61,329 bases of DNA, from positions 1 to 61,329 of the forward strand of contig JAAFIY010000007.1 of assembly GCA_013297985.1 (NCBI GenBank), given 5' to 3'. Every line of letters begins with the position of its first letter. Position 1 is the stretch's first letter. The position numbers and the translations under genes were made by a program. Below, piece by piece: positions 52,827 to 56,194 of this stretch. A model generated the notes under the pieces. It was not told where the DNA came from and did no database searches. It saw only the letters and a program-made list of their open reading frames with translations. Source of the stretch: Comamonadaceae bacterium. Lineage in GTDB: Bacteria; Pseudomonadota; Gammaproteobacteria; Burkholderiales; Burkholderiaceae_C.

Positions 52827-52893
52827 GCTAGGGCTCCAAGGGGCCAAGGTGGATAAAGGCCGGGTTGACGTCCTCAACCCAGTGGCCCATGAT

Positions 52894-52909
52894 GCGAGTA
52901 ATTACTCGC
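52894..52909. promoter_or_regulatory. candidate TetR operator (perfect 16-bp palindrome)
   Basis: GCGAGTAATTACTCGC is a perfect inverted repeat without spacer, centred between the divergent DUF962-type and TetR genes. Size and position fit a TetR-family operator. Confidence 0.7.
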
Positions 52910-52930
52910 TTTAGCCACTCGCGTTCTGGG

Positions 52931-53578
52931 ATGGCTTCACCGCTCATGCCCCGTACTCCGCGCGCCGCGCTGCGCCCCCGCAAAGCCCCCAGCCAGGCAC
53001 GTTCGTGGGTGATGGTGGATACCTTGCTGGCAGCAGCGACTCGCGTTTTGGCGCGCGAATCGCTGGCGGGCTTTAACACCAACCGTGTGGCCGAGGTCGC
53101 AGGCGTCAGCGTCGGATCGCTGTACCAATACTTTCCCAACAAGGCCGCGCTGGTGGTGGCCTTGATTGATCGCGAGCAGGCAAAGCTGGCGCAGGCGCTG
53201 GAAGAAGTCGTACACGCCAACGCTGGCCATAGCCTGGCCGATGGCTTGCGCGCCCTGGCTTGCTTGGCCATTGATCAGCAGTACCGTGACCCTGTCTTTG
53301 CCGCTGCGCTGGACCATGAAGAACGGCGCCTGCCCATTGGCACCCAGTTGCGCCAGCATGAACAGCGTTTGGGTGCGGCGGTACTGGCGTTTTTGCAGCA
53401 GCACGCCCAAGAGTTGCCGCCAGATCGGGTGTCGCCCGTGGTGGCGCGTGACTTGTTGCTGATCGCCCGTGCGCTGGTAGAAGCCGACGCGCAAGAAGCC
53501 CGCAAAGCGCCCCCCGATTTGTCCGAGCGCCTGTTGCGTGCCTTGAGTGGCTATTTGGGTGTGGGGCAGCGGCGTTAG
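52931..53578 (+). CDS. TetR/AcrR family transcriptional regulator
   Basis: The 215-aa regulator has an N-terminal HTH (RVAEVAGVSVGSLYQYFPNKAALVVALI) and a helical ligand domain with a TetR_C-like LLLIARALVEAD stretch. I chose the start at 52931 (52946 also possible) because an ATG at 52865 would place the palindromic operator inside the gene. The ligand is unknown. It is followed by a short inverted-repeat cluster that may end transcription. Confidence 0.9.
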   Translation: MASPLMPRTPRAALRPRKAPSQARSWVMVDTLLAAATRVLARESLAGFNTNRVAEVAGVSVGSLYQYFPNKAALVVALIDREQAKLAQALEEVVHANAGHSLADGLRALACLAIDQQYRDPVFAAALDHEERRLPIGTQLRQHEQRLGAAVLAFLQQHAQELPPDRVSPVVARDLLLIARALVEADAQEARKAPPDLSERLLRALSGYLGVGQRR

Positions 53579-53587
53579 TCGGCTGGA

Positions 53588-53619
53588 AATTGGGGTCAGA
53601 CCCCAATTGGTTGGGGTCT
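53588..53619 (+). repeat. inverted-repeat triplet TTGGGGTC / GACCCCAA / TTGGGGTC
   Basis: AATTGGGGTC-A-GACCCCAATT is a perfect 21-bp palindrome (53588-53608). A third arm, TTGGGGTC, follows after TTGG, so the middle arm can pair with either neighbour. It begins 10 bp after the tetR stop. Confidence 0.8.
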
Positions 53620-53638
53620 GCTATTGAAAAGATAGCTG
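53620..53638 (+). repeat. dispersed hairpin repeat, copy 11 (short)
   Basis: GCTATTGAAAAGATAGC then TG; only the first hairpin of the family is preserved. Confidence 0.65.
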
Positions 53639-53713
53639 TATGTGGCGTTTTTTTGGCGGAAGCGGCTGTTTTGCTGCTGAGGTTTGTGTGGTGCTCGGTT
53701 TGGACGCTCTGCC

Positions 53714-53831
53714 CAAAAGCACAACAGCCGAGCGGGCAGCCCGATAGCTCCATGTCCCCCGAAGAGTCCACTGGACTCTTCTCCTCCTTTACTTACGCCA
53801 TCGGGCCGCCCACTCGACTGCTGCGCTTCCG
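53714..53831 (-). ncRNA. candidate structured RNA: 32-bp helix with nested hairpin
   Basis: On the minus strand, the 32 nt from 53831 to 53800 pair with those from 53745 to 53714 over their full length, with 25 Watson-Crick and seven G-U pairs. On the plus strand the same seven positions are A-C mismatches. The loop contains a perfect 10-bp hairpin GAAGAGTCCA/TGGACTCTTC (53761-53781) and, on the minus strand, an AAAGGAGGAG stretch. No promoter is identified. I believe similar sequence recurs in other Comamonadaceae genomes but cannot verify this. Confidence 0.6.
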
Positions 53832-54021
53832 TCACGGCCGTTGAACCCTGGGTGCTGCACACCACGTGCGGAAGTTCGTCACCTACCCAACCCCCGCACA
53901 GCACGGGCGACGAGTTCGTCACCCAACCAAAATACCGGCGAAGCACACCACACGCTGACCACCGAGCGCGAGCGTCCGCACAAGCCCGCTCACCTCCGAT
54001 GAAGAAGCAAGCCCCCAAAGC

Positions 54022-54053
54022 AAAAAACCCGCAAGCCTTTCGACCTGCGGGTT
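54022..54053 (-). terminator. rho-independent terminator of groESL
   Basis: On the minus strand AACCCGCA pairs with TGCGGGTT around an 11-nt loop, followed by TTTT. It lies about 53 bp past the groEL stop. Confidence 0.85.
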
Positions 54054-54105
54054 GGGTGCAAGCAGTGGATTCAGTTGCGTGAACTGAATCCCTCGCGCAC
54101 AGGCT

Positions 54106-55896
<1,791 letters not shown>

Positions 55897-55900
55897 TGGT

Positions 55901-56194
55901 TTATTTGGCTTCCACAACCGCAAACAGGTCTTCTTCTTTCATGACCAACAGCTCGTCGCCATCAACCTTCACGGTCTGGCCGCTGTATTTGCCGAACAGC
56001 ACACGGTCGCCCACTTTGACGCCGACGGCGCTGATCTCGCCCTTGTCGTTCTTCTTGCCCGGGCCCACGGCCAGCACTTCACCTTGGTCCGGCTTCTCGG
56101 CCGCGTTGTCGGGGATGACGATGCCCGAGGCGGTTTTGGTTTCGTTTTCGAGACGCTTGACGATCACGCGATCGTGCAGGGGACGAAGCTTCAT
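55901..56194 (-). CDS. groES: co-chaperonin GroES (10 kDa)
   Basis: The 97-aa lid of the chaperonin starts [16 protein letters not shown], with the mobile loop [18 protein letters not shown] that contacts GroEL. A strong CAGGAGAACTC ribosome site precedes the ATG. It is the first gene of groESL, controlled by the CIRCE element at 56372. Confidence 0.98.

Follow-up and report, generated by a model that had tools for sequence, protein, structure and literature searches.

The window, that is, the whole stretch of 61,329 nucleotides analysed here, contains a hairpin located in a gap between a gene with a TetR_N domain (52865-53578, plus strand) and groEL (Cpn60; ORF as listed 54106-55806, minus strand, with a true start probably nearer 55749 than the listed ORF end); the groES ORF is located at 55901-56194. 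Both neighbours converge on the gap, which is gene-free, as the first-pass annotation had stated. Read on the minus strand, which is the sense strand of the element, the hairpin consists of the 5' arm of the main stem (53800-53831), the 5' side of a conserved internal loop (GGCGTAAGTAAAGGAGGA, 53782-53799), an apical hairpin of 9 bp with a 3-nt loop (53761-53781), the 3' side of the internal loop (GGGGGACATGGAGCT, 53746-53760) and the 3' arm of the main stem (53714-53745). The arms were delineated by folding and by pair counts across copies, and the two loop sides by their conservation across relatives, in which the pairing of the apical hairpin is kept while its length and sequence vary. The annotation had reported the inner hairpin as perfect and 10 bp long; the pairing is indeed perfect, but it extends over 9 bp (53761-53769 with 53773-53781). 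The ribosome-site-like AAAGGAGGAG that it had also noted is present, not as a stray ribosome site but as half of the two-sided internal loop.

Re-pairing of both arms (53714-53745 with 53800-53831) on the plus strand yielded the 25 Watson-Crick pairs and seven A-C oppositions previously counted (five A..C and two C..A), all seven of which become G.U pairs on the minus strand. Taken alone, the seven-of-seven bias in the window hairpin is weak (two-sided 0.016, hand arithmetic). The predicted fold of the minus-strand RNA for positions 53700-53845 had an energy of -88.4 kcal/mol (z -8.9), whereas that of the plus strand was -58.6 kcal/mol (z -4.7), with none of 200 shuffled sequences folding as well in either case; the annotated preference of the 32-bp hairpin for minus-strand RNA is thus borne out. 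A terminator-like hairpin after groEL (54026-54053, minus strand) is located upstream of the element on that strand, so that sense transcription of the window copy requires read-through. The element does not resemble an intrinsic terminator: a terminator search gave one weak 5-pair match inside the window stem, and in an alignment of 108 rows the stem was not followed by a conserved run of T.

The flanks contain several smaller features. An imperfect palindrome common to many copies (GCTATTGAAAAGATAGCT, 53620-53637) marks the right end. A separate short palindrome (GGGGTCAGACCCC, 53592-53604), of the form GGGGTC(A/T)GACCCC, recurs at the termini of several copies and also next to the genome's own Y1 transposase (Y1_Tnp) gene (window 53592-53604; L140:1488-1500), and probably represents a REP class of its own. 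Just beyond the element (53873-53922), AGTTCGTCAC occurs as direct repeats at a distance of 40 nt, and similar TGACGAACTT units precede several copies elsewhere in the genome.

A BLAST search of the own genome gave 33 matches, from which 30 places were taken forward (one partial) and 29 were aligned. At the same 32 positions, these 29 copies contained 739 Watson-Crick pairs, 158 G.U pairs, 6 A.C pairs, 20 other combinations and 5 gaps. The stems fall into two main types distinguished by matching substitutions in the two arms, as in CCCGATAGC/GCTATCGGG versus CCCGCTGAC/GTCAGCGGG. The longer copies are about 570 bp in size and include an extra inner domain of about 200 nt, which the window copy lacks; the homology of the latter to their 3' half covers 53619-53855 (minus strand, query 332-567 of 572), with a short match to their 5' part at 53853-53883 (minus strand). 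One stem in this extra (5') domain showed no strand bias (G.U 6, A.C 5 in 16 matchable own copies). The inner domain of about 200 nt was also observed away from any full copy, at L285:1385-1572 (G000:C25:3884-4071) and G000:C58:237-441, and may therefore be an independent repeat. One canonical inverted pair on contig C180 was missed by BLAST. By plain DNA similarity in 40 genomes, the 3' half was found only in the own genome, with a single match elsewhere consisting of two stretches of 31-34 bases.

The first-pass annotation had suggested a covariance-model search of related genomes. Using a model built from the 29 own copies and scoring 10 candidates per genome, we obtained matches in 91 of 299 genomes of the home family (f1). 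The fetched matches had different stem sequences and the same loop, and relatives with almost wholly different stems have one purine-rich internal loop in common, ARGUMAAGGRGGA / GGRGGACAY. The exact loop pattern was present in 139 of 399 f1 genomes, representing 72 of 141 genera, with up to 32 matches per genome, against one match for the reversed control; in one of the 139 genomes (G100) the match is in coding sequence and looks like chance. Beyond the home family the loop motif is patchy. An order-wide sample gave matches in 14 of 399 genomes (3 from f1, 9 from family f13 and 2 from f21; one control match), and a class-wide sample in 3 of 274 (three control matches): the own genome, G697, in which seven copies were counted, and G817, whose single match has a poor stem. 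The highest number in any of the pattern searches, 54 matches, was recorded for G481 (family f21); among the matches listed (ten), all were on the contig minus strand and several had a common GCTCTTT-type apical loop.

Searches outside cellular genomes gave few matches. No viral contig matched the stem pattern, while the loop pattern identified 59 stretches on viral contigs; scoring of 48 distinct stretches left 3 with a real stem, located on 2 contigs. These genuine hairpins in the viral collection (L192/L224, in IMGVR_UViG_3300024949_000020, and L196) represent either host flank or a phage copy. Plasmids and phages yielded no match except for one of 33 bases in a Variovorax plasmid. The only record retrieved by a scan of genome contigs with the stem pattern, a MAG under the title Bordetella parapertussis, is without the loop and was dismissed as a chance match. 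Rfam 15 gave no family at gathering or relaxed thresholds for the window, 9 own-genome loci and 12 relative or own loci; for the 12 loci, the matches on hairpins were to miRNA models below gathering. A HEARO-type RNA was considered and had no Rfam match. A Cobalamin riboswitch (Rfam RF00174) is located near one relative copy (L139:5630-5864). A literature search that covered titles and abstract openings for part of the results gave no recognisable description of the hairpin motif.

To quantify covariation, we used 108 model matches in an alignment fitted to the model, for which reason the figures are flattered; the rows include antisense matches of the window and L072 and two rows of the C180 pair. 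The element is roughly 85-130 nt in size, with a stem of about 25-33 bp, a conserved internal loop rich in purines and an apical hairpin that varies. Paired cells amounted to 95.1% versus 53.8% in shuffles, cells with changes on both sides to 1608 versus 470, and the covariation score was 0.705 versus 0.147 in shuffled and at most 0.091 in slid alignments. The number of pairs with any both-side change (46 of 47) says little, since shuffles reach 44.1.

The stem mismatches show a strong strand preference. Of 114 distinct hairpins, two were dropped for their poor stems; the remaining 112, six of them from the own genome, contained 210 G.U and 20 A.C mismatches in a count that treats both strands alike, and in a further 24 own-genome hairpins the ratio was 114:1. 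Without own-genome loci, the counts were 180 and 20 in 106 hairpins from 59 genomes. Per genome, G.U exceeded A.C in 50 cases, the opposite held in 2 and 7 were ties, so relatives that lean away from minus-strand pairing, the outcome that would have spoken against the original proposal, made up 2 of 59. Together, the counts from the 29 own copies, the 95.1% paired cells and the 50 versus 2 genomes strongly support the action of selection on a minus-strand fold, as had been suggested for the window hairpin. A decaying inverted repeat whose arms are kept alike by template-switch repair without selection is extremely improbable. Template switching can change both arms together without selection and could in this way imitate covariation, but the excess of G.U over A.C in 50 genomes versus 2 contradicts such an origin, and the process would tend to erase a conserved unpaired loop. 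A strand-specific fold also suits single-stranded DNA, in which the same bias of G.T over A.C is expected.

Sequence conservation is concentrated in the loop. Within alignment columns 69-176, 22 well-filled columns reached 85% identity, all of them belonging either to the internal loop or to the apical stem's first pair, and no column outside this range did so among those filled in at least 54 of the 108 rows, which leaves the foot of the stem without a tag. Two variable loop purines (R80 and R167) swap reciprocally: 95 rows had A..G and 10 had G..A, with no A..A or G..G, while three further rows were uninformative or odd (one C..G in L100 and two antisense). All 139 pattern matches with a good stem fitted the swap (124 A..G and 15 G..A). 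In the 29 own copies the numbers were 22 and 6, with one exception, a G..G in L021, which is also without another loop G. Positions R70 and Y175 covary as well (G-C 57, A-U 43, G-U 1, others 2, gaps 5). Judged from these sequence patterns, a two-layer quadruplex might form by stacking of the four GG steps; alternatively, side-by-side pairing of the purines is conceivable.

We also examined the arrangement of the copies and their gene context. In the loci examined, some of which were fetched as pairs, 44 of 45 close pairs (<300 bp) were inverted (-/+), with a median pitch of 153.5 nt (range 138.5-265). By exact motif, 29 of 64 intergenic clusters were pairs and 35 single, although some of the single clusters have a diverged partner visible to the model only. 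The clusters were located in 28 convergent, 32 tandem and 4 divergent gaps, compared with 9, 30 and 28 for the remaining gaps of these loci; the contrast of convergent with divergent gaps gave p = 1.5e-7. Crude gene calls placed 9 of 73 clusters inside a called ORF, in a tally that includes five own-genome loci and from which repeated loci and clusters that were not flanked by called genes on both sides were dropped; with the same crude calls, hairpin orientation had no clear relation to gene direction. Neighbour clustering gave recurring sites only, and no partner gene; the neighbours are diverse. One such site, between aldehyde dehydrogenase-like and dioxygenase-like genes, was seen in three genera and another, beside a biotin carboxylase-like gene, in four (names read from translations).

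The excess in convergent gaps and rarity in divergent gaps would suit a DNA-level site at the ends of converging transcription units, such as a cruciform or a gyrase or nucleoid-protein site, a role that has been proposed for some REPs. There is no evident reason why such a site should prefer G.U over A.C on one strand or keep two different purine strands in the loop, and we regard it as improbable. The two GGA-rich loop strands and the many copies per genome might point to a small RNA that acts in trans, or to a sponge that titrates a GGA-binding regulator, CsrA for example, yet the copies are dispersed at gene ends rather than confined to a few RNA genes, and a search for a promoter-like site near the window copy (53500-54150) found none; this we consider quite improbable too.

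Indications of mobility came from genus g91. Eight aligned pairs in genome G273 had common flanks that end abruptly, and terminal inverted repeats (TIRs) of GGCTCTTTG, with up to four mismatches, bracketed 5 of the 12 hairpin loci first examined in this genome; they also bracketed the 10 loci subsequently chosen by their TIRs, four of which are without an exact hairpin. Exact duplications were found in two copies within the genus (ATGAAAAAA and TTTTTCTA, 8 and 9 bp), and others look approximate. An 817-bp element with GGCTCTTTG TIRs contains broken transposase pieces. One of these matched the NCBIfam models IS1_IS1595_Zn and IS256_N_4Cys above cut-off and the other an NCBIfam IS1595 transposase model at 64.7 bits (cut-off 75). 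A Pfam search of the pieces did not identify a DDE transposase domain; its matches, three in number, were weak and fell below cut-off. A strict test for TIRs and target duplications (TSDs) identified 2 of 138 clusters, the two g91 copies, versus 2 of 525 controls with mismatched flanks. The ends thus hold for one genus and are not extended to the window copy. In the own genome, two spaced repeat pairs (contigs C58 and C25) were considered as an autonomous partner, and no transposase was recognised by eye in their ORFs. With its dispersed copies, frequent inverted pairs and transposon-like ends in one genus, the family best fits the "structured mobile repeat" that the first-pass annotation had offered as one of its guesses.

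Y1 transposases are the usual partners of REPs and read REP and IS605 ends as folded DNA. The hairpin might likewise serve as a recognition site in single-stranded DNA: when replication or transfer exposes the strand, a transposase or recombinase able to read folded DNA would use it. The strand-specific fold and the tolerance of G.T pairs suit such a site as well as they suit RNA, the copies are numerous, patchy and arranged in inverted pairs, and a Y1_Tnp gene (PF01797) was present in all of the first 8 motif-bearing genomes examined. However, no hairpin was found near the 11 Y1_Tnp genes of these 8 genomes (12 stretches; best model E 0.14 and 0.18), and in the own genome the Y1 gene adjoins the short GGGGTCTGACCCC palindrome and not the hairpin. 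Moreover, the gene was present in 15 of 20 motif-positive versus 16 of 20 motif-negative genomes and absent from five genomes with 7-19 motif copies. A RAYT partner was therefore rejected. Given also the diverse neighbour genes and that the ends visible in one genus are those of a double-strand element, we consider a single-stranded DNA site unlikely, though still deserving of attention.

The family behaves like REP/BIME elements, and its anatomy is different. According to the available part of one description (PMC3733652), elements of the GTAG and CGTC superfamilies are 20-40 bp in size with stems of 5-13 bp, and they share with the present family dispersed palindromes, inverted dimers, mostly convergent or tandem gaps, G-T pairs in the stems and some copies inside genes. 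The copies described here are dispersed, numerous, mostly intergenic and biased towards 3' ends, and they form inverted dimers with similar spacing. In contrast, the main helix of the model has 33 pairs in addition to the apical hairpin, a conserved internal loop replaces the GTAG or CGTC tag, and the flanking or co-occurring RAYT (PF01797) of the GTAG class has no counterpart in a link to the hairpins. The Beta-proteobacterial repeat element (BRE), as far as the accessible portion of its description extends (PMC3110155), is likewise about 90 bp, GC-rich, multi-copy and mostly intergenic, and consists of direct tandem repeats that align across the class, whereas close pairs are inverted and stems unalignable in our family. 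BRE is a possible relative, and perhaps even identical. REPINs form hairpins. In the REPIN/RAYT system, as outlined in part of its source, miniature repeats are moved in trans (PMC3116915); for the hairpin family, no link to a Y1 transposase was found. Copies in g91 resemble MITEs of the IS1595 family, for which TIRs and an 8-bp target duplication are characteristic, in their TIRs, in the 8- and 9-bp duplications of two copies and in the 817-bp relative with its broken IS1595-like pieces, but the hairpin family is wider than these ends.

The element is real, widespread and selected on one strand; its family and fold are demonstrated, and its function is inferred. We give about even chances to the reading that the window hairpin belongs to a dispersed, REP/BIME-like family in which the fold is maintained on a single strand and which likely acts as RNA at the 3' ends of transcripts. 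Read-through transcripts from either flanking gene would carry a hairpin in the good orientation. The internal loop, which has four GG steps and the reciprocal A.G pair, might be bound by a protein or form a compact purine core, and in that state could protect or fix the 3' end of the upstream message, by analogy with the 3'-end protection of messages proposed for REP elements. Copies may have been carried along in miniature transposons that an IS1595-like DDE transposase mobilised in trans, as the anatomy in one genus suggests. More tentatively, the hairpins could represent a widespread new class of structured RNA. In this reading, GGRGG would face GGRGG, and the purine core would contain either the reciprocal A.G pair or a G-quadruplex-like arrangement of two layers; the hairpins would often lie at gene ends as inverted pairs, such that transcripts from either side carry a working copy, and a host protein would read them and thereby determine the 3' ends of mRNAs in a large group of Proteobacteria. 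We hold this to be possible, with more doubt than confidence.

About one third of the sampled f1 genomes match the loop pattern, and yet no Rfam model matched the hairpin. The combination of a nearly free stem and an almost frozen loop amounts to a clean natural experiment, in which the A.G/G.A swap predicts mutants that should fail. Should the hairpin indeed fix the ends of mRNAs, it would be relevant to the role of REP-like elements in their hosts, a question of long standing.

In three genomes of one genus, a hairpin is located in a long ORF (L117:2850-3010, L122:2800-2960 and L134:2830-2970), the translations of which look like MutS. REPs have been reported inside repair genes, a likeness to these copies, of which two are on the ORF strand and one on the opposite strand.
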